From positions 23,707,419 through 23,771,418 of the forward strand of contig OZ020486.1 in the NCBI GenBank assembly GCA_963971405.1: 64,000 nt of DNA. The letters run 5' to 3'. Below, one piece after another: positions 21,992-41,520 of this stretch (position 1 is the stretch's first letter; every line of letters starts with the position of its first letter). The DNA is from Psococerastis gibbosa (lineage: Eukaryota; Arthropoda; Insecta; Psocodea; Psocidae). The notes below the pieces were generated by a model. It was not told the DNA's origin. It searched no databases and was given only the letters and a program-made list of their open reading frames with translations. The position numbers and the translations under genes were made by a program.

Positions 21992-23195
21992 CAATGGTGT
22001 CGTCTCGAGATGATAATTAATTAATTTATTAATTATAATAATTAATTTCTTGAAAACAAACGAATTATTGCATAATTTAAATCATAAAATTTTTTGTAGA
22101 TTATAAAATTAAAAGAAAGACGGCGGGCAAACTTACAAAATTAGAAAAAATTGAAAACAGAAATGGTCAATAATTGAAGACAAGTGGATTGAGATGTAAA
22201 AATATAAATGATATTTCCATAAATGACATCAAAATTGAAGAAAAATTCACAAGTGGAATAGCCGCCTTAAAGCATAGACCTTAGACCGTTATATGGTCGA
22301 AGCTTGCTACTCAATAAACGTGGAACAAGTTAAGAAATCACGGCCATTGCATTTTTGACTTATTAGGCTAGAACAGAAATGTACCATTAAGGAATTTAAA
22401 TTGTACTCAATTTTATTGGTCTTTTAGGTCTGTTTACAAACAAATGATTATTTATTTTTGTTTTCACAATATTATAATTAATAATATAATTTGAAGGGAG
22501 CAATAGCATTAATATTGTTAGCTGAGAGAGGTTTTACATGAAGGGGGTGGGTGCTGATAATTACGGTGAGGGCGTTTCTACCGTCCATTGCAACATCCAT
22601 CACCGCTGTCGGCAAACAGCTTCAAATCCGCCGAACTTCAATTTCCACTTGTGATTAATGCCTGTGGCTCGCGTCTTGACAAGTAAATGGCTTCGTAGGT
22701 GCGACCTGCGCAGCGATCGCTTCTAATGCCTCATAAACAACGCACTTTACCTCATTTGCTCCGAGAAAAAGTGCACTTTGTCGCTCTGCGTGTAATTCAT
22801 AGAGCAGTGGGTGGACCACCCGTTTGGTTCACCGTGTAACACAGGTGAGAGTGTTCCTCTCGCCCACAGAAACGATTGAAATTAAATGTTTTTTTCTCTC
22901 TAGTAGAATGTTTCTGGTCATTACGACGTTTACCATACCAAGCTTCCATATGTTTGGCCACCCACGGCGAAGGGACATTCAAATTCATAAGGACGTCTTA
23001 AATATAGGTCTTGTAAAGAGTTCGATATATCAGAAAAGTTGCTGCCTGACAATTTGTGAGAGGCGTCATGATTGATCGAGGTTTGTAAATTAGATAAAGG
23101 CAACGCAACGACAATTATGAGCGTGGCGCAGGCAGACAACTTTAACAGCTAGAATATTATTATAGCTTCTGAATTTGGTTGTGCTCAAAATGTCT
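21992..23195. other. intergenic, no gene seen
   Basis: AT-rich to about 22500, then a more GC-balanced stretch to 23100 with overlapping short frames on both strands. None shows a known domain. Confidence 0.6.
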
Positions 23196-23583
23196 TTTAG
23201 GTGCCCATTCCATTGACCGGCTAGGGCTATTTCCAATAACGGTGACGTGGTAGCAGACATTCAAGACTTAGGTGGCGTTTCCACTGACCTCGCAATGCAG
23301 AATTGACGGAAATGTTTATTTTCCTCTATGCCATAGTTAAAATTGATCAATGATCATACAGTAAAATCACAAACAAACAAACTAAAATTAAAAAATGGCT
23401 TCATGGGATATGTTAATTACAAACATTTTAATAGATTTCTATTAAAAAAAAAAACATTTCCGTCAATGTCATTTGCAATCTGCAATGCGAGGTCGGTGGA
23501 AACGCTACCTAAGTCTTGAATGTCTGCTACCACGTCATCGTTGTTGGAAATAGCCCTAGCTGGTCAATGGAATGGGTGTCTAA
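23196..23583. mobile_element. MITE with long (~130 bp) inverted arms
   Basis: The arms 23196-23330 and about 23450-23583 are near-complementary: left TTTAGGTGCCCATTCCATTG, right CAATGGAATGGGTGTCTAA. The arms include GACGTGGTAGCAGACATTCA and GGCGTTTCCAC, which are also found in the palindromic elements at 38622 and 44834, so they appear to be one broad family. No coding sequence. It directly abuts the left terminal region of the polymerase-bearing element. Confidence 0.75.
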
Positions 23584-23586
23584 GAG

Positions 23587-24375
23587 GATATGCTACCTAG
23601 AAAATTGATGGCACCCATAAATTAAACACTTTTCATTGTTTATTTAATTAACTCAGCAAGTTATAAAAATGTTGGCTCATATAAGTTGTAGAAGACTGCT
23701 TTGTGCATCATATACATATGAGGAGCTTGGTTACAAATGTGGCCAACTCCATTTTTTCAAAAAATGGGGTTTTGATCCGACCTTGCAGAAAATTTTAATG
23801 TCCACCTGCACGTTGTAAATTTATAGTAACAAAAGCAGCCAGATTGCGCACAAAAGCGCTGAAAAGTCTAGGATTAGCCATAAACTTAATGCAATTTTCT
23901 ACAGTAAATCCGCTCTCCTGAAAAATTCTACAACTTGGAGTTGGTCATGTTTGTAAACAGCCTCCTCATATATAATTGGGTATTTTTACTTTTCGGTTTT
24001 GTAGCTTTTCCAAAAATTCTATTATACGCAAAATTTTATTCCCCACTGGTTTTTATGAAGGAACTAATGTATCAAAAATTGTAAGTAGTATAGAAAGGGG
24101 GTTTCTGGCGCTTACCCCACCCCCCGTCGAGCTACCCCATCTACCCCACCCCCCGTCATGCTACCCCTCGTGGGTGGTCTGAGTTTCTGGCGCTTACCCC
24201 ACCCCCCGTCGAGCTACCCCATCTACCCCACCCCCCGTCATGCTACCCCTCGTGGGTGGTCTGAGGTTCTGGCGCTTATCCCCCCCCGTCGAGACCCGTG
24301 GGTGGTCTTTCTATGGCACCATGATCGTTTTTTTTTTTATAATTACTAATTTGTGAGATAGAGTTATATATATAT
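23587..24375 (+). repeat. left terminal inverted region of the compound element
   Basis: Matches the reverse complement of 37778-38205, including GGCTCATATAAGTTGTAGAA and the C-rich tandem block at 24090-24300. That block is an ~82 bp unit (GGCGCTTACCCCACCCCCCG ... CTCGTGGGTGGTCTGA) present about 2.3 times in both arms. The outer ~100 bp is diverged between arms while the inner ~270 bp is nearly identical. A MITE at 23716-23972 makes this arm longer than the right one. Confidence 0.8.
23716..23972. mobile_element. MITE inserted into the left terminal repeat
   Basis: The left end ATATGAGGAG...TTACAAATGTGGCCAACTCCA and the right end TGGAGTTGGTCATGTTTGTAAACAG...CTCCTCATAT form ~36 bp imperfect inverted repeats. 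The right arm of the compound element lacks this block, giving a filled versus empty comparison. The borders fit a TA or ATA duplication, but the exact site is ambiguous. Confidence 0.7.
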
Positions 24376-24483
24376 TTTTTTATTTATTTATTTATTTTTT
24401 TTATGGTGTAATTAAAACATTTCTTTCTTCTTCTTCTTTCTTCTGCGTGGGTGGTCTTTCTATGGCACTATGATTGTTTTTTT

Positions 24484-25680
24484 TTTTTATAACCCAGGTA
24501 AACATAAGCTAAATATAGACACCCGTAGTATTTAAAAACCTTAAAATAAATTAATATAAATTTTTTTTTATCAGCTATATTTACATCGATGAACACGCTT
24601 GAGCTAATGCATAATGTTTAGTACACTACATTGAGTAAACATAAGCTAAATATAGACACCCATAGTATTTAAAGACCGTAAAATAAATTAATATAAGTTT
24701 TTTCTTAATTATTTATTATCAGCTAAATTTACATCGATGACCACGCTTGAGCTAATGCATAATGTTAAGTACACTACAATAAGTAAACATAAGCTAAATA
24801 TAGACACCCATAGTATTTAAAGACCGTAAAATAAATTAATATAAGTTTTTTTCTTAATTATTTATTATCAGATAAATTTACATCGGTGAACACGATTGTG
24901 CTAATTAATAATGTTAAGTACACTACATTAAGTAAACATAAGCTAAATATAGACACCCATAGTATTTGAAGACCGTTAAATAAATTAATATAAGTTTTTT
25001 TCTTATTAATTTTTATCAGCAATATTTACATCGATGAACACGCTTGAGCTAATGCATAATGTTTAGTACACTACATTGAGTAAACATAAGCTAAATATAG
25101 ACACCCATAGTATTTAAAGACCGTAAAATAGCACCGCCAGAGAGAGCGCCTAGTGCAGAAAGCCCCGCAAATATTGGGATAAGTGGTAATATACCACCTG
25201 GTCGTTTTTAATATTGATTACTGCTTTAGTGTTATATATTTTTTGGGGTAAAGGGATGTAACTACTACCACTGCATGGATTATATTCAGCAATAAAAATA
25301 ACAAAACGTTTTAAAGATTTCAACACCCACCCGCTTCCCATTGCTTGAAATTTATCTATTTTTATTAAAATTTGTTCAATCATTTGTTGATATGTTATCG
25401 TGGAGTCATCATTGAGGAGAAGTTGTTCGTTTTTAGCACGAAACCATGCTTCAGTATAGTTTTTAAATAAGTTAATATAAGTTTTTTTCTTATTAATTTT
25501 TTTTTTTATCAGCTACATTTACATCGATGAACACGCTTGAGCTAATGCATAATGTTTAGTACACTACATTGAGTAAAGATAAGCTAAATATAGACACCCA
25601 TAGTATTTAAAAACCTTAAAATAAATTAATATAAGTTTTTTCTTAATAATTTTTTTATCAGCTACATTTACATCGACGAA
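24484..25680 (+). repeat. ~148 bp tandem repeat array
   Basis: Five consecutive units start with GTAAACATAAGCTAAATATA (about 24488, 24636, 24781, 24931, 25079), with spacing of 145-150 bp. A further unit follows near 25575. Each carries ACATCGATGAACACGCTTGA and GCTAATGCATAATGTTAAGT. The array is interrupted at about 25127-25460 by a reversed polymerase-gene fragment, and it lies just inside the left terminal repeat. Confidence 0.88.
25127..25460 (-). pseudogene. reversed fragment of the polymerase gene joined to a Gly-rich hydrophobic peptide segment
   Basis: Minus-strand sequence from about 25460 to 25205 corresponds to 33050-33320 of the intact polymerase gene (its residues ~256-345), with QAMGSGWVLKSLKRF visible. 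At about 25205 the match stops. The next ~75 bases, in a different frame, read GGILPLIPIFAGLSALGAL then SGGA, a hydrophobic Gly/Ala-rich stretch unlike the polymerase. The whole piece is embedded in the 148 bp tandem array. It is a rearranged fragment, not a gene. Confidence 0.75.
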
Positions 25681-25814
25681 CACGCTTGAGCTAATGGGAG
25701 ACAGGGATAGATAGACCAGTGAGGGTGAGCGCCATTGAATAATGCACATATTAATTACCTAATTTGAAACAGTGGACTACCCACGAATGATAGACGGTAA
25801 GGGTGGGACTCGGC

Positions 25815-26240
25815 GTTGCACTCAGTATCTTAAAAGAAATGTATTAATCCCACAATAGGTGTTCAATATACCCACCAGCCATGTTTATAAAAATGAATTT
25901 TCAATAATCCCAACTAAGTCTCAGTTTCTCACAATGGGTGTGCAATATACCAGGCAGTCGTGTTTTCTATGTTAGATTTAGTTACATTGGGCTAGGACAG
26001 GTTAAGTTATAATATTAGACTAGGTTAAATTTTTATATCAAGTTAGGGTAGGTTACATTGGATTAGGATAGGCCAGATTAGGTTACATTGGGTTAGGTTA
26101 GCTGTTTACCTAGATTAAATTCATCATTTTTTTTAACAAAAATATTTTTATATCAAATAAATATGATGTTAAGTTAGGTTACATTGAATTAGGATAGGTT
26201 AGATTAGGTTACATTGGGTAAGGATAGGTTGAGTTAGCCA
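25815..26240 (+). repeat. TTAGGTTACATTGG-type minisatellite block, copy 1
   Basis: Starts with CTCAGTATCTTAAAAGAAAT and CCCACAATAGGTGTTCAATA, then passes into degenerate units of GATTAGGTTACATTGGRTTAGGATAGG. The same block recurs, longer, at 30236-30978 and 36700-37279, and inverted at 37281-37577. Confidence 0.85.
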
Positions 26241-26406
26241 CAAACAAGCCATTAATAAATCTACCCCTCGCTGACAGTCCATTGTAAGCTAAAGTGATTT
26301 TTGTTTTCGTAAATCTATCCAACACTTAGGTTGAAGCATGGTCATTATCGCATTATAGATATGTCTTAGGTTTAAAAGTTTGTTTTAAGTGATTGTATGT
26401 AAAGAC

Positions 26407-26940
26407 ATTGTTTATGAGGGAAGATTTTACTGATCATAATAATAATTGCACAATTATGAGCGGAGGAGCACTATCTAACGAGGGGAACTTTGTATGCAAA
26501 ACATCTATAGCTCTAGATGGTGTTGTAAAATAATACAATTATAAAAACATAACCATACGTCATGATCCCGTTGTATATTTACATAATATGGAAGGTGAGG
26601 TTGATTCAATTACAACTGAAAACATAAAACTTTTTAAAGTGATTAAATGGTATAAAGGACAAGTCCCGTGCTGGGCAATTAATAAATCTATCCAACGCAC
26701 AGGTTTAAGGGAAGTATTGATTTAGTAAACAGATAACCGTGTGCAGATTCAAACCTGTTGAGAATCACCAGGTGCACTCAGTACACCCATCACACCAGGG
26801 GGTCCATTGTAAGCTAAGTGATTTTTGTTTTTGCATCAGTTGCACCCGGCAATGATAAAAACTATACTGAAGCATGGTTTCGTGCTAAAAACGAACAACT
26901 TCTCCTCACTGATGACTCCACAATAAAATATCAACAAATA
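26407..26940 (+). pseudogene. scrambled polymerase gene copy, part 1
   Basis: Two pieces of a second polymerase copy. The first, 26407-26653, matches 32765-33012 of the intact gene but contains an in-frame stop (AAATAATAC where the intact gene has AAACAATAC) and indels. The second, 26848-26940, matches 33045-33137. Between them lies ~190 bp of the repeat found upstream of the intact gene (31492-32070). The left junction joins the polymerase 3' flank (GATTGTATGTAAAGACATTG) to an internal codon. This is a mosaic produced by rearrangement, with no coding potential. Confidence 0.85.
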
Positions 26941-27220
26941 AACAAACAACATTTACAATATTAAAAATGGTAGGGGAGGGGGGCCCTTTAAAAGCAAAAG
27001 TGAACATTACAATTGCAAATACAAGTAAAGAAAAAATGTACGAATTAAGTAAAAAAAAATTTTTTTAAACGTTAATAGAAAAACAATTGTGCAGGCAGAT
27101 AACTGAAGTTATGTAGGCTAATAATAAAATATTGGTTGACAATCGACACTGAGAGAACATCCACTTTACAGTATGTATCCCAATTTTCATTAAGTCTAGT
27201 TGCTAAGTAGGGACGTGATG

Positions 27221-27952
27221 TTATTGGGGTTGGAAGAAATTAGGTATTTTATGTGTCTTGAAACTTGTTATGCTGACGGAGTCCTTTATGTTATCCGGTA
27301 GGGAATTGTACAATGGAATAGACTTATACATAATATGCGAATGCATAAAGTGTTCCGTATTCGGTTTCAAAGTTTTTAGGTTGCGTCCGGTACCAAGTCT
27401 GGTAATAATGTTATGATGGACGAAATCACCTTGCCCAAGAATGGTTTTTGCCCTTTTTAAATTGAAAAAGTAGAAGTTGTTTTGCACATAGCAATGGCAA
27501 TGGGAGGGCATTGAATTCCTGAAAAAGAAGATTTGAAGGGTAGCGGCGAGGCTTCCCTATAGCTACCCTGATGGCTATTCTTACATCAGTTTCTAGGGAG
27601 CATATATGGGAAGAGTGAGCACCACCCCAGGCTAATATGTTATATTGGAAAATTGATTGGACTAAAGCATGATAAACTTACCTTACAGAGTGTCAACGTT
27701 AAGTGTACACCTTAGCATCCTTAATTTGTTATAGGTTCTTCTAATTCGTTTTGATGTTAGGAGGATTTGTTCATACCACTTGAGATGATTATCAATGGTA
27801 ACGCCTAAATATTTAATAGTATTTGCTTTTGCGATTATCTGACATGTGCATGGATTAAGGTTGCAATTATTATGGAGTATTAAACTGAGATAGAATAGAA
27901 TAGAAGAATAGAATAATGTATTTCGTTCCTTCAATAATACATATACATGCAC
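27221..27952 (-). pseudogene. non-LTR retrotransposon reverse-transcriptase C-terminal fragment
   Basis: The minus strand encodes, in two frames, NTIKYLGVTIDNHLKW followed by SKRIRRTYNKLRMLR (27683-27952), and then further along MYKSIPLYNSLPDNIKDS and ITSFKTHKIP (27221-27511). The YLGVxID...W motif and the PLYNSLP...ITSFK ending are standard for the C-terminal part of jockey/CR1-type LINE polymerases. A frameshift or lost segment separates the parts. It is inserted in the degenerate polymerase copy of the compound element, so it arrived after that copy began to decay or helped break it. Confidence 0.8.
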
Positions 27953-28204
27953 ACCAATATAATGAGGTAGGGGTGGCCCAAAGGATTTCTCCCGTGCTGG
28001 GGACCCCTTAATACTATAATAACTAAGCTAAAACTTTATCGATAATAATTAATTTTATGTAGACTCTAAGTAACATCACTAAGTAAGGAAATAAGTAAGA
28101 TCATATACTAAGATGGTTTATCACTCTGTTGAATCCGGGGTTGTTATGCTAACGCACTATTGCTGGAAGATTTCTTAGTTGATTTTGGGACAGATGAAAG
28201 CTAA

Positions 28205-28368
28205 TTTTACTAATGAATTTTTTTTTTTTTTTTATGTAGATTTTTTTTTATGAACTCAGGAAGGCTGTTATATAATGGAACTGATAGGTAAATGTGAGAA
28301 TGTGTGAAAAGGGTAGTGTTATGATTGGGGATCTGAAGATTGCGACCAACACCAAGTCCAGTATAGCT
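28205..28368 (-). pseudogene. second short LINE fragment
   Basis: The reverse complement resembles the 27290-27410 region of the neighbouring LINE (a PLYNSLP-type segment preceded by RLGVGRNL-like residues), diverged and flanked on the left by a T-rich run. It ends exactly where polymerase sequence resumes at about 28370. Confidence 0.6.
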
Positions 28369-28369
28369 A

Positions 28370-29285
28370 AAACTATGGAAGAATATATAGCCTTCAGTAT
28401 TGGAGAGTTATGCTTTTAAGACACTTACCAATTTATGGCCTCCTCATTAGATTCAGTAGTTAAAAATCTTGTTGATGCGGATAAAAATAAATTTAAAATT
28501 ATGAAAACATGTTTTGTGGATGAAAAATTAGACTTGATGTTGAGGAAGGGTGTCTTCCCCTATGAATATATAACGCACGAGTCACAATTTAATGAGGAAC
28601 ACTTACCTACAATCATTGCATTTTTAGTCAATTAACTCAAGAGTGGATTTCACAAGAAAAATATGAACATGCTCAAAAGGTGTGGAATGCTTTTGATATA
28701 AAGAATTTAGAAGAATACCAAGACTTGAATGTATTAAACAACACCCTTCTCTTTTGCGATGTTTTTGAAGCCTTTAGAGCCTAATGTTTTGAAAACGATA
28801 ACCTCGAAATTTGTCACATGTACACTGCACCAGGGCTAGCTCTTCAGAGCTGTCTGAAAATATTAGTGGGTTTCGCTGGATGGAGGAGGAAGAAATCAAA
28901 AAATTTTAATGTAATGCTCGCACCTAATGAGGACGATGGTGGGTTCATATTACATGTGGACTTGGAATATCCACAAAAATTACATGATTTACATAATGAA
29001 TACCCACTAGCAGCTGAACATTGTGTTGTAACTTCAGACATGATTTCTCCATATTGCAAGGAATTTCTCGCTGAAAATAATATATCTTTAACATCCACCA
29101 TCTCAATGCTTATTCCCAACTTAAACGATAAACACAACTATATAATACATTATCGAAATTTGAAGCAATGTTTAGAATTGGCATTACAATTAAAAATGTA
29201 TACATAAAATTTTAGCTTTTAAGCAAAGCGCTTGGATGCGACCCTTTATCGATTTTAATTAGCTTGTAATGATTTCGAGAACAAA
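28370..29285 (+). pseudogene. scrambled polymerase gene copy, part 2
   Basis: Aligns with 34320-35466 of the intact gene at roughly 93-95% by eye. It has an internal deletion at about 28860 that removes 34820-35032, so polymerase motif A and its surroundings are lost. There are also premature stops (for example CCTAATG at 28779 where the intact gene has CCTTATG). The last part ends just before motif B. The junction at 29285 passes into a capsid-like frame through a short shared word, GTATGGTGATAAA. Confidence 0.88.
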
Positions 29286-29288
29286 AGT

Positions 29289-29794
29289 ATGGTGATAAAT
29301 GATGAAATTCGCATACCAATCCATCAACAAGATATACTTATTACTCTACCATGTGAAAGCCGACTGCATATTGAAGGTGTGCTGGAAAAAGGTGTGACAA
29401 CAATTGCTTATCAAGGTGAAGACTGGCTTAGCGCTAATGCTATGGCACACTTATTCTCCGAAATATGCTATGAACTCAATGGAATAACTGTTGATCATGT
29501 GCGAAACCCTGTGCGAATGATTTCTTCAAGTGAAAAACCACGGTTTGCTATTATTGGCTTCCAAGCAGCACGAGCAGATGATATTTGAAAGACGCTACTG
29601 CCTTCGATCAATGTGCTGTACGACAAATGCAACTATTCCTCGGCTCAGAATGCTATCCATACCATCCGCTACAGGCGAACTTCAACAAAAAGGTTGTTGC
29701 TGAATTGTATGAACATTTTCTCAATTTCCGGAAACAATACTACATGCAGGATGAAGCATCCCCGAACGTTTCCCGGGTCATTATCGCATTATAG
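29289..29794 (+). pseudogene. truncated capsid-like (putative jelly-roll) protein gene
   Basis: Two adjoining frames, 29289-29588 and 29585-29794, carry conserved-looking segments: EIRIPIHQQDILITLP, then AMAHLFSEICYELNGITVD, then KPRFAIIGFQAARADD, and in the second frame QLFLGSECYPYHPLQANF. I recognise this order as that of a protein encoded next to family-B polymerases in arthropod Polinton/adinto-like elements, probably the major capsid protein; that identification is from memory and not searched. The protein is only ~165 residues, with a missing middle, a frame break at 29585 and a C-terminus replaced by polymerase 3' sequence (GGTCATTATCGCATTATAG). It is dead. Confidence 0.5.
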
Positions 29795-30978
29795 ATATGT
29801 CTTAGGTTTAAAAGTTTGTTTTAAGTGATTGTATGTAAAGACATTGATTTCTTTTAAAATATGTGTATTATAAAATTTGTATATCATAAAATGGTTTACA
29901 TTCGTTTAGCTCATGGTCATTATTGTATTATAGATAAGTCTTAGGCTTAAAAGCTTGTTTTAAGTGATTGTATGAAAAGACATTGATTTCTTTTAAAATA
30001 TGTGTATTATAAAATTTGTATATCATAAAATGGTTTACATTCATTTACAATAGTTGATGTACAATACCAGTTAAAGGTACATATTCATATAAGCAGTCGC
30101 TGATGAGTAGACAGTCCCTTTATTTGCCATGCAGACAACCCTTTATATATTGGAGTGCATAAGGTCGGTGGCCATTTCAGTCCCCCTCGCATTAAGATTA
30201 TGACACATCGCTATTAATTCAGGTACGCCGATATAATAAGTGCACTCAGCATCTTAAAAGAAATGTATTAATCCCACAATAGGTGTTCAATATACCCACC
30301 AGCCGTGTTTATAAAAATGAATTTTCAATAATCCCAACTAAGTCTCAGTTTCTCACAATAGGTGTGCAATATACCAGGCAGTCGTGTTTTCTATGTTAGA
30401 TTTAGTTACATTGGGCTAGGACAGGTTAAGTTATAATATTAGGCTAGGTTAAATTTTTATATCAAGTTAGGGTAGGTTACATTGGATTAGGATAGGCCAG
30501 ATTAGGTTACATTGGGTTAGGTTAGCTGTTTACCTAGATTAAATTCATCATTTTTTTTTAACAAAAATATTTTTTATATCAAATAAATATGATGTTAAGT
30601 TAGGTTACATTGAATTAGGATAGGTTAGATTAGGTTACATTGGATTAGGATAGGCCAGATTAGGTTACATTGGGTTAGGTTAGCTGTTTACCTAGATTAA
30701 ATTCATCATTTTTTTTTAACAAAAATATTTTTAGATCAAATAAATATGATGTTAAGTTAGGTTACATTGAATTAGGATAGGTTAGATTAGGTTACATTGG
30801 ATTAGGATAGGCCAGATTAGGTTACATTGGGTTAGGTTAGCTGTTTACCTAGATTAAATTCATCATTTTTTTTTAACAAAAATATTTTTATATCAAATAA
30901 ATATGATGTTAAGTTAGGTTACATTGAATTAGGATAGGTTAGATTAGGTTACATTGGGTTAGGATAGGTTAAGTTAGC
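29776..30978 (+). repeat. ~1.2 kb direct repeat (polymerase 3' end/flank plus minisatellite block), copy 2
   Basis: From GGTCATTATCGCATTATAGA through two ~110 bp tandem units (AAAGACATTGATTTCTTTTA), CAGTCCCTTTATTTGCCATG and the TTAGGTTACATTGG minisatellite. It is almost identical to 36237-37279, with differences such as one G/A at the AAAATTTRTATATC site and one extra minisatellite repeat. The pair brackets a 5.3 kb unit holding the intact polymerase gene. Confidence 0.9.
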
Positions 30979-31220
30979 GGCTAACTCAACTCAAAGTTAA
31001 ATACCTAATATTGAAAATAGTGCAAATCGAAAAAACAGAATATGGACCAGCTGTAAAAGTCATATTGCGAGGATTGGAAAAAGAAGTCGTGGAATGTTTT
31101 GTGCCTCAACAATATCTGCCAGCCTTTCAACAAAGTGAAGTTACTCCAGGAGCTGAGATGTATCTTATCGTTTCAAGCCATCGGGGAAAAAATAGTGTCA
31201 ACCTACAGATCATAGAATGA
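30978..31220 (+). pseudogene. small beta-rich protein fragment, possible ssDNA-binding-like
   Basis: An open frame runs from a stop at 30975-30977 to TGA at 31218-31220, without an ATG at its start. The conserved-looking part is KIVQIEKTEYGPAVKVIL, then VECFVPQQYLPAF, ending AEMYLIVSSHRGKNSVNLQI. Alternating hydrophobic residues predict a small beta barrel. Similar short proteins accompany the polymerase and capsid genes in arthropod elements of this kind, as I recall, and an OB-fold single-strand-binding role would make sense, but this is inference. The N-terminus is fused to the end of the minisatellite block, so the gene looks 5'-truncated. Confidence 0.45.
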
Positions 31221-31491
31221 ATATTTCATGATGTATTATTATTGTAAACTACAGAAATAATGTAAATATATGAATAATTTCTATATATATTTTTGTTCTT
31301 GTTTTATTAATTTCATAACTAGTTTTAAGCTTACAGTTAGATGATGATGAGTATTAAAAACTAATGTTTGAAAGAAACAAGCTATTGCTTCAGTCATAAT
31401 CGAGTACTTGAACGGTGAAGGGTTATTATAATCATAGACTATGAAATGATGTAAATCAAATAATTAAACGAGTACATTAGCTAATTTTAAT

Positions 31492-32070
31492 AAATCTATC
31501 CGAAGCATAGGTTTATGGGAAGTATTGATTTGGTAAATAGTTAACCGTGTGCAGGTTCAAACCTGTTGTGAATCACCAGGTGCATATAACTCTGTACAGC
31601 CGTCTAATGGTTCAGACAAACAACACATTAATAAATCTACCCCTCGCGGACAGTCCATTGTAAGCTAATGTGATTTTTGTTTTCGTAAATCTATCCAACA
31701 CTTAGGTTGAAGGGAAGTATTGATTTGGTAAACAGAGTGCAGGTTCAAACCTGTTGTGAATCACCAGGTGCATATAACTCTGTACAGCCGTCTAATGGTT
31801 CAAACAAACAAGCCATTAATAAATCTACCCCTCGCTGACAGTCCATTGTAAGCTAAAGTGATTTTTGTTTTCGTAAATCTATCCAACACTTAGGTTGAAG
31901 GGAAGTATTGATTTGGTAAACAAATAACAGGGTGCAGGTTCAAACCTGTTGTGAATCACCAGGTGCATATAACTCTGTACAGCCGTCTTATGGCTCAAAC
32001 AAACAAGCCATTGATAAGTCTACCCCTCGCTGACAGTCCATTGTAAGCTAAAGTGATTTTTGTTTTTGCA
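31492..32070 (+). repeat. ~190 bp tandem repeat, three units, upstream of the polymerase gene
   Basis: Units start with AAATCTATCC at 31492, 31687 and 31875 (spacings of 195 and 188 bp). Each carries GGGAAGTATTGATTTGGTAA, CAGGTTCAAACCTG, TGAATCACCAGGTGCATATA and CAGTCCATTGTAAGCTAA. The CAGGTTCAAACCTG word resembles a tRNA T-arm/Pol III B box, but no full tRNA cloverleaf is visible. Partial units occur at 26253-26340 and 26660-26850. Confidence 0.88.
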
Positions 32071-32094
32071 TTAGTTGCAATCGATCGTTAGAAA

Positions 32095-32223
32095 ATGAAT
32101 GGTGTCTTAACAACATATTATCCGCTTCGTGATGGACAATCTATCCCTGTACCCTTACCATCTATCCTTAGTGGGTGGTCGTCGCTACAAAAGGCATCGC
32201 CTTGGGTTGAGGAGCTTAGTTGA
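32095..32223 (+). CDS. candidate 42-residue small ORF upstream of the polymerase
   Basis: ATG at 32095 to TGA at 32221-32223, starting MNGVLTTYYPLR, 60 bp before the polymerase ATG and on the same strand. It contains VPLPSILSGW. A diverged, stop-containing relative of this sequence is visible in reverse at about 25690-25810, which suggests the stretch was part of the ancestral element. Whether it is translated, is a leader ORF, or is only part of a promoter region cannot be told. I do not recognise a domain. Confidence 0.3.
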   Translation: MNGVLTTYYPLRDGQSIPVPLPSILSGWSSLQKASPWVEELS

Positions 32224-32283
32224 AACCGAACCTTCATTCGCGTAGTACCACTTCATTGTAGTGAATTTGTGTAATCGTACAGC

Positions 32284-35200
32284 ATGGAATCGAAGAAAAG
32301 GAAACTGAACGCGAGGGAATATGTGTGTAGAATATGTGCTGTGAGTTTCACACTAAATTGTCATTTGAAAAGGCATGCTATAAACAAACATGGAGTTAGT
32401 ATTATACCGTGCAAAAAATGTAAAGCTACATTCACATGCAGAGAGGACCTATCTCATCATATATTGCAGCGGCATACATCAGCTAATCGCGGGAAGGAAA
32501 CTGAACAAATCACCCCAAAACTGACATCTGCTGGGAATGGAGAGGACTGCAAGGCATGCGGGGGCAAAATCAACAACTCCAGTCCACTTACAGTTCTGTG
32601 TAAAGAATGTTCATCTATCTTTTCGTGTAAGTATGAGAATCCTGTATCTGTTAAAACCCTTGAGTGTAAATATATTTGTGAATTCTGTTCGGTCCCTTTT
32701 GCTCGGAAGTATAGTTTGAAAGTCCACATATTAAGCATACATATTATTAATTGTTTGAATTGCAAGAAATTGTTTATGAGGGAAGATTTTACTAATCATA
32801 AGAATAATTGCACAATTATGAGCGGGGGAGCACTATCCAACGAGGAGAACTTTTTATGCAAAACATCTATAGCTCTAGATGGTGTAGTAAAACAATACAA
32901 TTATAAAAACATAACCATACATGATCCCGTTGTATATTTAAATAATATGGAAGGTGAGGTTGATTCTATTACAACTGAAAACATTAAACTTTTTAATGCA
33001 ATTAAATGGTATGTAGCCTTACACATTAAATTTGAACGCGGACCCGACAATAATAAAAACTATACTGAAGCATGGTTTCATGCTAAAAACGAACAACTTT
33101 TCCTCACTGATGACTCCACAATAAAATATCAACAAATGATTGAACAAATTTTAGTAAAAATAGATAAATTTCAAGCAATGGGAAGCGGGTGGGTGTTGAA
33201 ATCTTTAAAACGTTTTGTTATTTTTATTGCTGAATATAATCCATGCAGTGGTAGTAGTTACATCCCTTTACCCAAAAAAATCTATAACACTAAAGCAGTA
33301 ATCAATATTAAAAATGACGATCTCAAATGTTTTATATGGTCAATTTTAACATACTTACATCCAGTAAGTCGGGATGCTCAGCGGGTTTATAATTATAAAA
33401 AGTATGAAAAAGAGTTAGATATGAGTGGTATAACTTACCCAGTATCTTTGCAAGTCATTTCAAAATTTGAAAAAAATAATAATATTGGAGTAAATGTGTT
33501 TGGTTATGATCACAGACTGTACCCATTATATTTATCACAAAGTCACCATTATAATAAGCAGGTGGATCTGCTTTACATAACGGAAGACGAAAATTCACAT
33601 TATTGTCTTATTAAAAATTTCAACAAACTTAATTTCTCAATCACTAAACATAAGGAACAAAAGTTTTATTGTCGTTGGTGCATACACGCCTTTAGTAGTG
33701 CTGAACGCTTACATGAACATAAGCCACTCTGCTCAAGACATGATCCTCAAAAAACCACATTTTCAATTAAGGAGAAAAGCACTATGAAATTTGATAAGGC
33801 ACAATATATGATCCCTGTAGCATATAGAATATATGCCGATTTCGAGAGCATTCTCAGTCCCGTTGAAGGGACTATTTGTAACACTGAAAAATTATCTGCA
33901 CATATACCATCAGGGTTTTGTTATGTTGTTGTAGATATCAATGGGAATAAGTTTAAAGAACCGGTAGTTTACAGGGGAGCCAATGCTGTTGATGTGTTTT
34001 TGAAATCGTTATTAAATGTTAAGGATGAAATTTTAAACATTTATAAAAATATTAAAGCAGTAATTATGACTGATAAGGATAGAGAAAATTTTAAAAACTC
34101 TGTCATTTGTAATGTTTGTCAAAAACCACTAGGAAATGATCGTGTAATAGACCACTGTCATATAACGGGAAAATATAGACAAGCATTACATAATGTTTGT
34201 AATATGAGCAATTTTCGAACTCCAAAACATATCCCCGTTTTTATGCATAACTTAAAACGTTATGATGGTCATCTTATCATGGAAGGGGTTGGGAAACTAA
34301 AAAATATGAAAATTACTTGTATAGCTAAAACTATGGAGGAATATATAGCCTTTAGTATTGGAGAGTTACGCTTTTTAGACACTTATCAATTTATGGCCTC
34401 CTCTTTAGATTCATTAGTTAAAAATCTTGTTGATGCGGATAAAAATAAATTTAAAATTATGAAAACATGTTTTGTGGGTGAAAAATTAGACTTGATGTTG
34501 AGGAAGGGTGTCTTCCCCTATGAATATATAACGCACGAATCAAAATTTAATGAGGAACACTTACCTCCAATTGATGCATTTTTTAGTCAATTAACTCAAG
34601 AGGGGATTTCACAAGAAAAATATGAACATGCTCAAAAGGTGTGGAATGCTTTTAGTATAAAGAATTTAGGAGAATACCAAGACTTGTATGTATTAACAGA
34701 CACCCTTCTCCTTTGCGATGTTTTTGAAGCCTTTAGAGCCTTATGTTTTGAAAACGATAACCTCGAAATTTGTCACATGTACACAGCACCAGGGCTAGCT
34801 CTTCAGAGCTGTCTGAAAATGACAGGAGTAGAACTTGAGCTATTGAGCGAACCTGATATGTATTTGTTTTGTGAGGCTGGGATTCGCGGGGGTATAAGTA
34901 TGATTTCAAAAAGATTTGCGGAAAGCAACAATAAATACTTAAAAAAATTTGACTCAAATAAGCCATCCAAATTTATAGTATATTGGGATTGCACTAACTT
35001 ATACGGACATGCGATGCGTCAATTTTTACCTATTAGTGGGTTTCGCTGGATGGAGGAGGAAGAAATCAAAAACTTGAATGTAATGCTCGCACCTGATGAG
35101 GGCGATGATGGGTTCATATTACAGGTGGACATGGAATATCCACAAAAATTACATGATTTACATAATGAATACCCACTAGCAGCTGAACATTGTGTTGTAA

Positions 35201-36264
35201 CATCAGACATGATTTCCCCCTATTGTAAGGAATTTCTCGCTGAAAATGATATATCTTTAACATCCAACATCTCAAAGCTTATTCCCAACTTAAACGATAA
35301 ACACAACTATATAATACATTATCGAAATTTGAAGCAATGTTTAGAATTGGGATTAAAATTAAAATGTATACATAAAATTTTAGCTTTTAAGCAAAGCGCT
35401 TGGATGCGACCCTTTATCGATTTTAACACAGAAAAACGGAAATTAGCTTGTAATGATTTCGAGAAGGATTTTTATAAATTGAAAATTAATAGTATGTATG
35501 GGAAGACAATGGAGAATGTTAGAAATCACGCAAAATTAGAGTTAGTTAACACTGCCAAACGAGCTCGTAAACTTATCTCATCCCCTGCATTTAAAGATTT
35601 TAAGATTTTTTCAAACGATTTAATAGCAGTCCGGTCAAAAAAAACTAATATTTTGCTAAACAAGCCAATATTTATTGGCCTAACCGTTCTCGAACTATCC
35701 AAGGTAGTTATGTATGAATTTCATTATAACTTTGTAAAACAAATGTATGGTGATAAAGCTGCACTGATTTTAACAGATACAGATTCGCTCGTTTACGAGG
35801 TTGAGAGTGATGATTTGTACACTGATTTAAAACCATATCCCCATTTATTTGATAACTCAGTATATCCTCCGAACCATCTCTTATACAATATTGAAAATAA
35901 AAAGAAAGTGGGAACGTTCAAAGATGAAAATGCTCAATCTCACATTTTACAATGTGTTGCTTTACGCCCAAAATTGTATTCCCTTTTAGAGGAGGGAAAG
36001 GAGAAGAAAGTGGGCAAAGGTATAGTTCGTTCAACCCTTAAACATCATATTAACCATCAAGACTATTACAATACCTTATTTAAGCCTTGCATAGCAAAAG
36101 ACTCACGTAAACCAATGTTCCGTATTCAAAGTAGAGATCATAAGCTTTTTACAATTAAACAGCAAAAAGTCACTCTTAGTCCTTATGATGATAAACGGTA
36201 TGTGTGTCGTAATGGAATTGATAGTTTAGCTCATGGTCATTATCGCATTATAGATATGTCTTAG
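32284..36264 (+). CDS. protein-primed type family-B DNA polymerase with zinc fingers and endonuclease-VII-like module (1326 aa)
   Basis: An intact intronless gene. N-terminal C2H2-type fingers: C15/C18/H31/H36, C43/C46/H59/H64, C132/C135/H148/H153, C157/C160/H172/C176; another finger is at C463/C466/H479/C483. The 3'-5' exonuclease residues are present: YADFE (D519, E521), HNLKRYD (D661) and YVLTD (Y802, D806). A Cys/His module C609-x2-C612, DHCH (623-626) and HNVCN (636-640) matches recombination endonuclease VII-type HNH domains and is inserted between exonuclease motifs I and II. Polymerase motifs A (DCTNLYG, D902), B (KINSMYGKT, 1067-1075) and C (DTDS, 1165-1168) are all complete. This class copies linear DNA from a terminal-protein primer in Polintons, adintoviruses and relatives (family knowledge). 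The chosen start is the first ATG of the frame and gives a complete first finger. All catalytic residues are intact, unlike the nearby broken copies, which implies recent insertion or selection. Confidence 0.93.
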   Translation: MESKKRKLNAREYVCRICAVSFTLNCHLKRHAINKHGVSIIPCKKCKATFTCREDLSHHILQRHTSANRGKETEQITPKLTSAGNGEDCKACGGKINNSSPLTVLCKECSSIFSCKYENPVSVKTLECKYICEFCSVPFARKYSLKVHILSIHIINCLNCKKLFMREDFTNHKNNCTIMSGGALSNEENFLCKTSIALDGVVKQYNYKNITIHDPVVYLNNMEGEVDSITTENIKLFNAIKWYVALHIKFERGPDNNKNYTEAWFHAKNEQLFLTDDSTIKYQQMIEQILVKIDKFQAMGSGWVLKSLKRFVIFIAEYNPCSGSSYIPLPKKIYNTKAVINIKNDDLKCFIWSILTYLHPVSRDAQRVYNYKKYEKELDMSGITYPVSLQVISKFEKNNNIGVNVFGYDHRLYPLYLSQSHHYNKQVDLLYITEDENSHYCLIKNFNKLNFSITKHKEQKFYCRWCIHAFSSAERLHEHKPLCSRHDPQKTTFSIKEKSTMKFDKAQYMIPVAYRIYADFESILSPVEGTICNTEKLSAHIPSGFCYVVVDINGNKFKEPVVYRGANAVDVFLKSLLNVKDEILNIYKNIKAVIMTDKDRENFKNSVICNVCQKPLGNDRVIDHCHITGKYRQALHNVCNMSNFRTPKHIPVFMHNLKRYDGHLIMEGVGKLKNMKITCIAKTMEEYIAFSIGELRFLDTYQFMASSLDSLVKNLVDADKNKFKIMKTCFVGEKLDLMLRKGVFPYEYITHESKFNEEHLPPIDAFFSQLTQEGISQEKYEHAQKVWNAFSIKNLGEYQDLYVLTDTLLLCDVFEAFRALCFENDNLEICHMYTAPGLALQSCLKMTGVELELLSEPDMYLFCEAGIRGGISMISKRFAESNNKYLKKFDSNKPSKFIVYWDCTNLYGHAMRQFLPISGFRWMEEEEIKNLNVMLAPDEGDDGFILQVDMEYPQKLHDLHNEYPLAAEHCVVTSDMISPYCKEFLAENDISLTSNISKLIPNLNDKHNYIIHYRNLKQCLELGLKLKCIHKILAFKQSAWMRPFIDFNTEKRKLACNDFEKDFYKLKINSMYGKTMENVRNHAKLELVNTAKRARKLISSPAFKDFKIFSNDLIAVRSKKTNILLNKPIFIGLTVLELSKVVMYEFHYNFVKQMYGDKAALILTDTDSLVYEVESDDLYTDLKPYPHLFDNSVYPPNHLLYNIENKKKVGTFKDENAQSHILQCVALRPKLYSLLEEGKEKKVGKGIVRSTLKHHINHQDYYNTLFKPCIAKDSRKPMFRIQSRDHKLFTIKQQKVTLSPYDDKRYVCRNGIDSLAHGHYRIIDMS

Positions 36265-37279
36265 GTTTAAAAGTTTGTTTTAAGTGATTGTATGTAAAGA
36301 CATTGATTTCTTTTAAAATATGTGTATTATAAAATTTGTATATCATAAAATGGTTTACATTCGTTTAGCTCATGGTCATTATTGTATTATAGATAAGTCT
36401 TAGGCTTAAAAGCTTGTTTTAAGTGATTGTATGAAAAGACATTGATTTCTTTTAAAATATGTGTATTATAAAATTTATATATCATAAAATGGTTTACATT
36501 CATTTACAATAGTTGATGTACAATACCAGTTAAAGGTACATATTCATATAAGCAGTCGCTGATGAGTAGACAGTCCCTTTATTTGCCATGCAGACAACCC
36601 TTTATATATTGGAGTGCATAAGGTCGGTGGCCATTTCAGTCCCCCTCGCATTAAGATTATGACACATCGCTATTAATTCAGGTACGCCGATATAATAAGT
36701 GCACTCAGCATCTTAAAAGAAATGTATTAATCCCACAATAGGTGTTCAATATACCCACCAGCCGTGTTTATAAAAATGAATTTTCAATAATCCCAACTAA
36801 GTCTCAGTTTCTCACAATAGGTGTGCAATATACCAGGCAGTCGTGTTTTCTATGTTAGATTTAGTTACATTGGGCTAGGACAGGTTAAGTTATAATATTA
36901 GGCTAGGTTAAATTTTTATATCAAGTTAGGGTAGGTTACATTGGATTAGGATAGGCCAGATTAGGTTACATTGGGTTAGGTTAGCTGTTTACCTAGATTA
37001 AATTCATCATTTCTTTTTTAACAAAAATATTTTTTATATCAAATAAATATAATGTTAAGTTAGGTTACATTGAATTAGGATAGGTTAGATTAGGTTACAT
37101 TGGATTAGGATAGGCCAGATTAGGTTACATTGGGTTAGGTTAGCTGTTTACCTAGATTAAATTCATCATTTTTTTAACAAAAATATTTTTATATCAAATA
37201 AATATGATGTTAAGTTAGGTTACATTGAATTAGGATAGGTTAGATTAGGTTACATTGGGTTAGGATAGGTTAAGTTAGC
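36237..37279 (+). repeat. ~1 kb direct repeat (polymerase 3' flank plus minisatellite block), copy 3
   Basis: Begins within the last codons of the polymerase gene and runs through the two ~110 bp tandem units and the TTAGGTTACATTGG minisatellite to the palindrome centre at 37280. It parallels 29776-30978 almost base for base. The units contain TTAGGTTA words reminiscent of arthropod telomeric TTAGG but are not a regular (TTAGG)n array. Confidence 0.9.
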
Positions 37280-37577
37280 CGCTAACTTAACCTATCCTAA
37301 CCCAATGTAACCTAATCTAACCTATCCTAATTCAATGTAACCTAACTTAACATCATATTTATTTGATATAAAAATATTTTTGTTAAAAAAATGATGAATT
37401 TAATCTAGGTAAACAGCTAACCTAACCCAATGTAACCTAATCTGGCCTATCCTAATCCAATGTAACCTAATCTAACCTATCCTAATTCAATGTAACCTAA
37501 CTTAACATTATATTTATTTGATATAAAAAATATTTTTGTTAAAAAAGAAATGATGAATTTAATCTAGGTAAACAGCT
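36983..37577. repeat. perfect palindrome with 297 bp arms and a 1 bp centre
   Basis: The arm 36983-37279 is exactly complementary to 37281-37577 about a single C at 37280 (GTTAGC C GCTAAC). Even length variants of the A/T runs and the AATATAATG variant are mirrored. The right arm ends at the first N of the assembly gap, so its real length is unknown. Confidence 0.92.
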
Positions 37578-37777
37578 NNNNNNNNNNNNNNNNNNNNNNN
37601 NNNNNNNNNNNNNNNNNNNNNNNNNNNNNNNNNNNNNNNNNNNNNNNNNNNNNNNNNNNNNNNNNNNNNNNNNNNNNNNNNNNNNNNNNNNNNNNNNNNN
37701 NNNNNNNNNNNNNNNNNNNNNNNNNNNNNNNNNNNNNNNNNNNNNNNNNNNNNNNNNNNNNNNNNNNNNNNNNNNNN
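37578..37777. other. assembly gap (200 N)
   Basis: A run of exactly 200 N, a conventional placeholder length. The true distance is unknown. It separates the palindrome from the right terminal inverted region, and the missing DNA may include the right counterpart of the 148 bp tandem array. Confidence 0.99.
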
Positions 37778-38205
37778 AAATATATATATAACTCTATCTC
37801 ACAAATTAGTAATTATAAAAAAAAAAACGATCATGGTGCCATAGAAAGACCACCCACGGGTCTCGACGGGGGGGGATAAGCGCCAGAACCTCAGACCACC
37901 CACGAGGGGTAGCATGACGGGGGGTGGGGTAGATGGGGTAGCTCGACGGGGGGTGGGGTAAGCGCCAGAAACTCAGACCACCCACGAGGGGTAGCATGAC
38001 GGGGGGTGGGGTAGATGGGGTAGCTCGACGGGGGGTGGGGTAAGCGCCAGAAACCCCCTTTCTATACTACTATTGTATATTTCCTATTATACGATATGAT
38101 GCATTAAGTAGTCTTCTACAACTTACATGAGCCAATACTTTGTTAATTAAATATAAAATAAAAAGTCAATAACAACAACAAATTTTGGGGTCCTAATTTT
38201 CTACA
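37778..38205 (-). repeat. right terminal inverted region of the compound element
   Basis: The reverse complement of this segment matches 23587-24375 without the MITE: the AT-rich CACAAATTAGTAATTATAAA part, the ~82 bp GGGGGGTGGGGTAGATGGGG tandem units, and ACTTACATGAGCCAATACTT. Similarity fades outward by about 38205. Confidence 0.8.
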
Positions 38206-38846: not shown

Positions 38847-40884
38847 TTTTTTTTTCCCAGCCGGTACCCCCAGCACTGGGAGCATTTAATAGAAATAATA
38901 CAATACAACATTAAAGAAAATAATTGTTTTTTCCGGAATACTGCATGTAAGCCCCATAATAATAATAATAATAATAATAATTGTGTATTGACCAGAAAAT
39001 TGACAACTATACATTTAAGAGAAAATAAATAACCCCCTACATACTTAAAATATCATCGGTTGAACCTTATGTCCTTACGTTATTCAGATAGGAGCACCAT
39101 TTTGTCAAGCCTTGCTGCATGACCCATCTTAATTAATAACTATTATAAATGATTATAATTTATAAATATTAATGATAAATTGTCTCCTTGGGGGGGGGGT
39201 AGTTGCGTGTAAATTAGATGAAACATATGTGATATCGATTAAATTAGAGCATAATAAAATTGACTTACAACTAATTTGGGGGGGGGCAGCTACTTCCCTG
39301 CCCCCCCCTGTATCCGTCCAGGGGGGATGGGGGCCGGAGGGCGTATCTGCCCCCACAAATCCAATTTATGAAATCTATTGTAAGTTAATTTATTACGCTC
39401 CTATTTAATTATTATATTACATTATATTATTATTAAAATATTACGCCTACATAATTATATTTCATCTATTTTGACCCCCAACTATCCCCCCCCCCCCAAA
39501 TAGGTGCACTTAATAGGTGTAGCACCTGTGTCCTGTGCAACAGTACTATCATATGTCACAATGTCTTCAAATACGTTAACATGACTAATGGTTCATCTTG
39601 CCACTGTGGCAATCGCTCATAATACTCTTAATAGGGGTTACGCTACTGTATGTGAGGTAAGTTGCCACCACCAAAATCTCTAGAGTATTGATAACATTTA
39701 GCGACAGCCGTATGACGGGGCACATAACTAGTGAGTTGAGAAGGATATTATTATGACAGCGGGCCCACAATCCCAAAACGATTGCATTTATACCTGCTTT
39801 GCGACTTAAGAATTTAGAGAGAACAAATCGAACCGTTGAGGTGTCAGAGGGACAAAAGTTAGTTCTAGTGAATAGCCTTCATTGACGTGGGAAAGATTTG
39901 CGTCGGTTCGGCGCGTTACACTGTTTACAAACATGATAACATAGCCTCGTGGTTGGAAACAATATAACCCCCTGGAGCCAACCTTATTTTCTTTTGTCAC
40001 GTGTATAGAAAGCAGGCCACCCCTATACCTAGGGTATGTCCAACAATGTTGACGTGTTTTTGTTAACCATGATAGGTAATTATTGCCCCACTTTGTTACT
40101 ACTTTTTGCGTTGTTGTTGTGTTGACTGGGGGTCCGTGGACCTTGTACCTTGCAGACAAACAAATTTTTGTCTCAGGCCACCCCGCAGCGCCGATTTTTT
40201 ATTTTGAAATTCGAATTCGATACCTCCTGGCTCTCATGCTAGTTTGGACAGGTTCCCCGTTCCTCAAATTTGAAGTACCATACTTGCCAGGGAAAACTAC
40301 GTATTGACAATTTCAGTTTTATGTAAACCCATTTTTCGTACATCAGTCATCAGTCAATCAGTGGCGCCATGGCCTGATACAGGGGGAGTAGGGAGATAGC
40401 TGCCCTCCCCAAATTTAGTAAACCTATTGTAAGTTAATTTATTACGCTTTGATTTAATCGATACTACATATGTTTTTCCTATTTTGACAACCCCCCCCCC
40501 CTCCCAAATTGGCTAGATCCGTTCTTGAGTTTCGACCTTTGAATCCAAATGAATGACTTGGAAAATGAATGAGCAAATGTCAGTGAGAAACAACAGTGAA
40601 GGGATAGGACAGTGAACGACAGCGAATGTTGTCGTGCAGAACTGCGCGAAAACGCCTGTACCTAGGCACGAATATTTTTGCCACAATCCACTGCGCTTTG
40701 TGCTAATGCTAATTAATGTGTTCAGGCTCTGCCAGGCTCGGCCAGACTTCACGCATGCATTGAACCGAGGGTGCTATAATAGCAGGTAAAGATAGACATA
40801 GTTCAGCCGAGAGAAGTGATAAGTGATAACATGTGTGCAACGCGTCAATTACTTATTATAATAAGAATTACTGCAAGACTACGC

Positions 40885-41520
40885 CAGATGACCAGGAACT
40901 CCAGAAGGCGACGACGTTTAAATACCTAGGATCGATCCTAAACGAAAACGGGGGCTGTGAAGATGATGTGAGAGCCAGGATTAATGTTGGGTGGAGCAAA
41001 TGGCGAGATATGTCTGGAATTCTGAAAGACAAGAAAATGCCCAAAAAACTCAAAGGCAGAATTTACAAGCAGGTGGTGAGACCTGCAATGCTGTATGGTG
41101 CGGAATGTTGGCCATTAAAGAAATGCGAAGAAAACCTTCTACATGTCGCAGAGATGAGGATGCTCCGGTATTCGATCGGCTGCAAGCTGTCTGATAGGAG
41201 GAGGAATGAAGACATCAGGGCAAATCTTAGTACAGCCAGCATTGTAGATAAGGCGAGAGAACGGCGCCTGGCATGGTGGGGACATACAAAACGGAGGGAA
41301 GATGGACACCTGCTGTACCGAGTGGAGAACTACGTCGTGGAGGGCAGGAGACCGAGAGGCCGACCCAAGCTGACCCTGGAGGCGAAGGTAGCACAAGACC
41401 TGAGTACCTTGAACCTGACCATAGAGGACACCGAAAACCGTATTGCGTGGAAGAAGAAGATCCAAGTCGCCGACCCCTCCGAAGGGATAAGGCGCGGATA
41501 AAGTAAAGTAAAGTAAGTAA
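40885..41520 (+). mobile_element. 5'-truncated LINE carrying the reverse-transcriptase C-terminus, 12 bp TSD
   Basis: The 12 bp GCAAGACTACGC lies at 40873-40884 and exactly again at 41521-41532, so the insertion is 40885-41520. Inside is one uninterrupted frame ending at TAA near 41501. It encodes TTFKYLGSILNENGGCEDDV, WSKWRDMSGILKDKKMP, YKQVVRPAMLYGAECWP and RRLAWWGHTKRREDG, the C-terminal block of reverse transcriptases of RTE-like or related LINEs. The 3' end is a short AAAGTAAAGTAAAGTAAGTAA tandem tail rather than poly-A. Target-primed insertion with 5' truncation explains the size. The preserved frame and perfect duplication indicate a young copy, so an active parent probably exists elsewhere. 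No catalytic YxDD motif is included. Confidence 0.9.

Follow-up and report, generated by a model that had tools for sequence, protein, structure and literature searches.

A defective Maverick/Polinton-type insertion in the genome of Psococerastis gibbosa and its mirror-image relatives

Adintoviruses combine a Maverick-type gene set with animal hosts, and Mavericks may pass through a free linear DNA with origins at its ends, a step that is usually just inferred. Most knowledge of defective interfering genomes comes from virus cultures. Adeno-associated virus (AAV) is a parvovirus with a single-stranded genome that lacks its own polymerase. Its snapback genomes can be either symmetric or asymmetric (PMC8235507). 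Reported characteristics of vertebrate Mavericks include a 6-bp duplication, a doubled AGT at the end, and terminal repeats of 46-1447 bp with a mean of 402 bp (PMC8097293). Here, we analyze a stretch of 64,000 nucleotides from the insect Psococerastis gibbosa (contig OZ020486.1, positions 23,707,419 to 23,771,418; henceforth termed the window) that holds a single Maverick/Polinton-type insertion, and compare this element with its relatives in the same genome.

The insertion extends from 24084 to 38071 of the window (13,988 bases as assembled). Its outer inverted repeats, which begin AGTAGTATAG, are identical at 294 of 294 bases, far beyond chance; the element ends read AGTAGT...ACTACT, and ATTGTA stands immediately outside both ends. 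A preliminary description had placed a virus-like element at 23587-38205; its inverted outer regions stand, but its limits have to be replaced by those just given. We label the left half of the element arm D (degenerate) and the right half arm P (polymerase), complete elements V, and mirror-image copies P-P or D-D; L numbers denote loci taken from the genome and C labels with coordinates denote genome positions, the genome searched being the 409 Mb from which the window comes. Arm D consists of broken polymerase pieces and a capsid fragment with an internal deletion. In arm P, a truncated small protein and a tandem array precede the intact polymerase, which is followed by TTAGG-rich repeats, a palindrome, 200 N, and the right repeat (Table 1). 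The element almost certainly descends from a Maverick/Polinton family of which this genome also holds complete, recently amplified members. Taken as a whole, we consider it probable that the window copy is a defective integrated derivative of this family, whose palindromic members form by fold-back and are integrated by means of complete elements; for the fold-back step itself, our confidence lies only slightly above even.

Complete elements measure ca. 14-15.6 kb. Terminal inverted repeats with a 6-bp target duplication, as in the window, also delimit C14:15055218-15070166 (CTTATA on both sides) and C19:9784851-9799412 (GGGCTG on both sides). Locus L023 contributes the genes of one complete element: a capsid gene, a frame in the expected minor-capsid position, protease-like, phospholipase-A2 (PLA2)-like, and A32-like ATPase genes, an rve integrase, and further frames of no assigned kind. 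An integrase 40-mer has 139 genome sites at up to two mismatches (control, 0), and 126 integrases were scored from 843 candidates, 84 of them 98-100% and 42 of them 93-94% identical to the query, with an internal stop in 4 of the 126. The 42 at 93-94%, none of which has an internal stop, look like a sister family of complete elements. Capsid relatives, judged from the best 120 of 1685 matches, include proteins of Onthophagus taurus, Leptinotarsa, Cotesia, Lasioglossum, and others at 40-45% identity.

The polymerase genes connect these complete elements to the window copy. Of 1323 first-look candidates, 35 were scored, and all 35 are full length without stops. Sorted by 3' neighbor, 16 adjoin a capsid gene, one (C13:28021271) adjoins a capsid gene followed by a gap, and 18 lie in P arms, among which C2:33283733 is without the usual inner segment. 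The 16 comprise C14, C19, six copies with the full 1230-bp capsid gene, and eight with its first 757-764 bases, the capsid sequence of these six and eight being 99.9-100% identical to that of L023. Eight other polymerase copies differ from that of the window at 1 to 5 of 3981 bases; the sole complete-element polymerase among them differs at 3 of 3981 and falls inside the spread of the P copies compared. The family looks young. The preliminary description had considered a minimal lineage that keeps the polymerase alone, a reading with which the 18 of 35 polymerases in P arms without an adjacent capsid gene would agree. We rejected it as very improbable given the 16 or, counting the copy at the gap, 17 capsid-flanked polymerases, the position of the complete-element polymerase within the P spread, and the presence in this genome of complete elements that share the ends of the window copy and likewise have 6-bp duplications. 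The alternative offered there, the shell of a larger element, is borne out by relatives with polymerase, capsid, PLA2, ATPase, integrase, and protease-like genes, and the assignment to a Polinton/Maverick-like kind agrees with a PolB bearing finger-like and EndoVII-like segments next to capsid relics.

What is new here is that gene-poor derivatives across the genome frequently take a mirror-image form; a literature search of limited reach found no description of palindromic Mavericks or Polintons, so an earlier publication may exist. Matching 6-bp duplications lie outside both ends of nine elements (window, C13:28.0, C2:35.9, C2:33.28, C1:156-178, C3:45.5, C20, C14, and C19). An intact polymerase is present in eight of the nine, and polymerase pieces alone in the remaining one, a D-D copy; this speaks against the terminal regions belonging to an unrelated repeat. 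P-P copies read end, small protein, array, polymerase, inner repeats, and centre, followed by the same parts in mirrored order. C2:33276322-33289933 is such a copy; CAGAGA flanks it on either side, and the stretches taken from it (L015-L017) contain no N run. Three further P-P copies combine an internal gap with matching duplications (C2:35.9, CACACT; C3:45.5, TTGTTT; C1:156488-178799, ATTCCG), and C13:28.0, with AATATA on both sides, has the capsid gene and gap mentioned above beside its left polymerase. The D-D copy C20:18115730-18128835 is flanked by GTAGTT on both sides and has a gap close to its centre. A 25-mer from the element end occurs 232 times in the genome (control, 0). When +/- neighbors less than 25 kb apart were paired among the first 100 of these places and labeled from incomplete marker lists, 33 end pairs resulted: 12 with integrase, 7 D-D, 4 P, 4 with other D patterns, 2 D+P, and 4 markerless. 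One of the four P pairs, C3:5495243, is a complete element, and another, C1:156488-170857, joins ends with non-matching duplications.

These copies could arise during replication. Fold-back of a growing strand draws on established knowledge of protein-primed and parvovirus replication. A complete element would replicate as linear DNA primed at its ends, by a protein as we infer, with one strand displaced at a time; a growing strand that switched to its own partner or folded back (snapback) would copy one half twice. The product would be a palindrome of this half with two like ends, and hence with both origins and both integrase sites, which the integrase of complete copies could insert into chromosomes. 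P-P palindromes would encode the polymerase and the small OB-like protein and need the V integrase, plus the V capsid if packaging into particles takes place, while D-D palindromes would need every function from elsewhere. Two facing copies of one half with a terminal repeat at each end, the pattern of a snapback-type defective genome, are present in C2:33.28 (P-P) and C20 (D-D). The window copy has a palindromic centre and identical ends, yet its D and P arms differ and a gap masks the remainder. Several P copies (L002, L003, L006) have a symmetric centre, whereas the centre is asymmetric in C2:33.28, where the right arm ends at the polymerase end, and in L036, which is almost without a second arm before the centre. 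The occurrence of both kinds matches the AAV snapback genomes (PMC8235507). In L036:1-300 (C14:31.6 Mb), the end repeat lies nearly at the palindrome centre, making this an extreme asymmetric copy.

In the one full-arm comparison, an alignment of 6083 bases between the two arms of C20 shows 1 mismatch and 3 gap positions, compared with 35 mismatches over three aligned stretches between the C20 left arm and the window D arm and 24 over two stretches between the C20 left arm and the D arm of C1:4.78. P arms were compared over their outer 1.1-2.1 kb, with 1 (C2:33.28), 0 (C1:156-178), 0 (C2:35.9), 12 (C3:45.5), and 0 (C13:28.0) mismatches within an element.

Several observations weigh against the fold-back reading. 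The outer P stretches of different elements are equally alike, with mismatches down to 0 or 1 when C3:45.5 left is set beside C2:35.9 left and C13:28.0 left; they fail to separate elements and were dropped as evidence, which leaves the C20 comparison as the support for arms made together. Capsid fragments (150 scored of 451 candidates) form 43 pairs within 12 kb, of which 37 are convergent, but five are in '++' and one in '--' order. A search of six complete-element loci (L022, L023, L040-L043) gave no match to the inner segment of the P and D arms (30116-30990), so simple fold-back of V is insufficient for the centre, and a foreign centre was gained at least once. This single segment, common to P and D arms, might trace to one event, as would be expected if one or a few recombinations between inserts in opposite orientation had produced palindromes that then spread as non-autonomous transposons, with no ongoing fold-back. 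Mixed pieces such as the one on C23, where an integrase side meets a cut polymerase arm, point to recombination. We nevertheless regard this origin as unlikely, as the centres vary from symmetric, through cut at the polymerase end (C2:33.28), to almost one-armed (L036), which fits repeated events, and the arms of the one full D-D element compared are far closer to each other than arms of different elements.

A last point against fold-back is that gaps cluster in the elements, leaving many mirror-image copies in more than one piece: the loci taken contain 16 N runs of at least 50, or 13 after merging overlaps, and 13 of 13 touch element sequence on at least one side. The mirror-image elements could accordingly be mostly assembly artefacts in which single-arm or nested copies were joined at shared repeats. 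Some assembled orders look suspect in this respect. On C1, the left duplication agrees with that at the more distant right end but not with the nearer one, so that the polymerase copy C1:164873, together with the gap behind it, looks intrusive in this order. At C1:4.78, D-arm sequence adjoins the end of a P arm; beyond it come a gap and a flank in which the left duplication TACATC recurs. This arrangement fits the nesting of a P element within a D-D element whose centre was wrongly joined. The D-P junction of the window is unique in the genome. Against a wholesale artefact stand C2:33.28, with its two facing polymerase arms, matching duplications, and no N run in the stretches taken, the two flanks of an element, which are unlike each other in contrast to those of fold-back reads, the good assembly of complete V elements, and the orientation of neighboring capsid fragments, convergent in all 36 pairs less than 5 kb apart. 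We therefore consider this explanation improbable, more so than recombination, and continue to favor fold-back. D-P hybrids are a different matter. C37 has a D arm followed by a P arm across two overlapping loci without N, but with C1:4.78 explained by nesting and a wrong join, and C37 and the window set aside, we doubt that such hybrids form a real class. At C23:13800-20900 (L062), 47 bases of TTAGG-rich repeat link the integrase side of a complete element to a cut polymerase arm, beyond which lies a centre; this piece is either a mixed recombinant or an assembly join.

For the window itself, the arrangement of arm D joined to arm P is not to be relied on: the junction occurs once genome-wide, lies near a gap, and may have been created in assembly. 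The outer repeats, with their full identity, and the duplications can be trusted. The preliminary description had reported one complete polymerase and broken pieces in a single inverted-repeat unit. The inverted ends are confirmed and carry matching duplications; the run of 200 N went unmentioned, and in this copy the polymerase half may have been joined to the degenerate half in error.

Table 1. Features of the window element (window coordinates) and of the complete element at L023.
Feature	Position	Strand	Basis
Left 6-bp target duplication, ATTGTA	24078..24083	.	sequence
Left terminal inverted repeat, 82-bp tandem units at 24101-24293	24084..24377	+	294/294 vs right repeat
148-bp tandem array, D arm	24559..25130	.	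tandem-repeat pattern
Polymerase piece, D arm, 96.6% to intact gene	25201..25465	-	alignment
Two polymerase pieces, D arm (26385-26653, 91.1%; 26844-26968, 88.8%)	26385..26968	+	alignment
Two open frames, reverse-transcriptase-remnant-like by our reading	27221..28027	-	no Pfam match
Two polymerase pieces, D arm, 94.8% and 92.2%	28361..29281	+	alignment
Internally deleted double-jelly-roll capsid gene, pieces 29298-29511 and 29508-29775	29298..29775	+	PF21738, alignment
139-bp repeats, followed by the inner segment and TTAGG-rich repeats of 157 bp common to D and P arms	29776..30990	.	
D arm/P arm junction, single genome occurrence	30980..31005	.	genome search, <=2 mismatches
Truncated small protein, last 72 of 101 residues and stop, predicted OB-like fold	31002..31220	+	homologous full frame, structure prediction
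188/195-bp tandem array 5' of polymerase	31491..32066	.	tandem-repeat pattern
Intact PolB-type DNA polymerase, 1326 aa, finger-like and EndoVII-like segments	32284..36264	+	open reading frame, Pfam, homologues
Perfect palindrome, 297-base arms, centre 37280, TTAGG-rich; usual centre of mirror-image copies	36983..37577	.	arms 36983-37279 / 37281-37577
200-N assembly gap	37578..37777	.	N run, abuts palindrome 36983-37577
Right terminal inverted repeat	37778..38071	-	294/294 vs left repeat
Right 6-bp target duplication, ATTGTA	38072..38077	.	sequence
Capsid, double-jelly-roll major capsid protein	L023:262-1488		PF21738, 9.4e-91
238-aa frame, expected minor capsid position	L023:1603-2316		no Pfam match
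Protease-like (adenovirus-type cysteine protease)	L023:2327-2755		PF00770, E=0.0071, 16.5 bits, below cut-off 21.3
Phospholipase-A2-like protein	L023		PF08398, 5.8e-14
A32-like packaging-type ATPase	L023:3451-4197		PF04665, 4.3e-9
rve integrase	L023:4907-5854		PF00665, 1.5e-10

The relics in arm D clarify what the window copy has lost. Its five polymerase pieces of more than 100 bases are 89-97% identical to the intact gene. The capsid-like frames at 29289-29794 resolve into two parts of a capsid gene that has lost its middle; they match the L023 capsid gene at 94.4% and 93.7% identity. The relic reaches E=1.7e-5 and 24.6 bits against PF21738, below the cut-off of 27. The reported lack of integrase, packaging ATPase, and protease genes also holds, none being seen by eye among the frames of at least 90 aa in 20000-42000 (seven of which were scanned with Pfam), and integrase, ATPase, and protease-like genes occur in complete copies elsewhere. 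With a broken capsid gene and neither integrase nor ATPase seen among these frames, the window copy is a derivative and not an autonomous Maverick/Polinton. Two features lie outside the insertion: a separate small foldback repeat at 23194-23586, an inverted repeat with 108-base arms that are 91% complementary, and a 223-aa frame at 40830-41501 that we read as the end of a non-LTR reverse transcriptase, with no Pfam match above cut-off.

Arm P contains the single complete polymerase gene, for which the preliminary description had given the correct architecture. EndoVII-like and C2H2-like (finger) segments are recognizable, both under the Pfam curated cut-offs, and motifs that we take to be those of the exonuclease and polymerase are unchanged across an alignment of seven sequences. 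The polymerase of complete copies is probably a family B enzyme of the protein-primed type, given an open reading frame of the same 1326 aa, these invariant motifs, and PF03175 in the homologue P0013. The window polymerase itself has no PF03175 match at E<=1, which weighs against a protein-primed-type PolB. Its homologues number 33 at E<=0.001 with 32-48% identity; the spider Larinioides sclopetarius contributes two of these and Trichonephila clavata one. A PDB profile search with the polymerase alignment returned zinc-finger proteins in the best 60 of 124 matches and no polymerase among the matches listed, and an IMG/VR scan with the same alignment yielded one relative carrying a single polymerase match.

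The small-protein fragment, reported earlier at 31011-31220, is the end of a protein whose gene lies in the end regions of the complete element (L023) and also occurs in P arms (L014). For its 72 residues, five strands and one helix in OB order are predicted, with a pLDDT of 72.4 and a pTM of 0.58 for the best model and pLDDT values as low as 46 for others. Foldseek gave OB-like matches, none at E<=0.001 (best, RPA70N at 8.7e-3), and a homologue search gave none at E<=0.01 and one candidate; we hold the OB-like fold with modest confidence. Polymerase and small OB-like protein together would be a possible small replication kit, which could explain why both are kept in P arms. In L014:2012-4618 (C2:35.92 Mb), an 868-aa frame lies in an insert of ca. 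4.1 kb between end repeat and small-protein region of one P arm and appears to be a nested mobile element.

Together, these data lead us to a tentative picture, to which we give somewhat less than an even chance, of three tiers in one genome: a complete virus-like Maverick; P-P satellites with two facing intact polymerases and the OB-like protein; and gene-dead palindromes that depend on both. The satellites would be the integrated equivalents of snapback defective interfering genomes of a protein-primed double-stranded DNA virus, remade by fold-back and spread in the germline beside their parent. As likely integrated counterparts of defective interfering genomes next to many near-identical complete parents, they would make the rise of satellites readable from chromosomes. 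Mirror-image copies with two like ends also bear on Maverick replication, as they fit a free linear DNA with origins at its ends. In practical terms, palindromes of 13-14 kb are a warning, since they break assemblies and create seemingly rearranged elements like that of the window.

Compared with known systems, the family shares PolB, integrase, ATPase, capsid, ends starting AGTAGT, and 6-bp duplications with Mavericks/Polintons (PMC8097293, PMC4028283) and differs by its gene-poor mirror-image copies with inverted halves of ca. 6-7 kb that include the polymerase. Teratorn is a herpesvirus with piggyBac ends and no polymerase-arm palindrome (PMC6431247). In AAV snapback genomes, as in the palindromes, one moiety of a linear genome is repeated in self-complementary form along with its terminal repeat, and both symmetric and asymmetric forms exist (PMC8235507). 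The copies described here differ from them in that they are integrated with target duplications and bear an intact polymerase in the arm.

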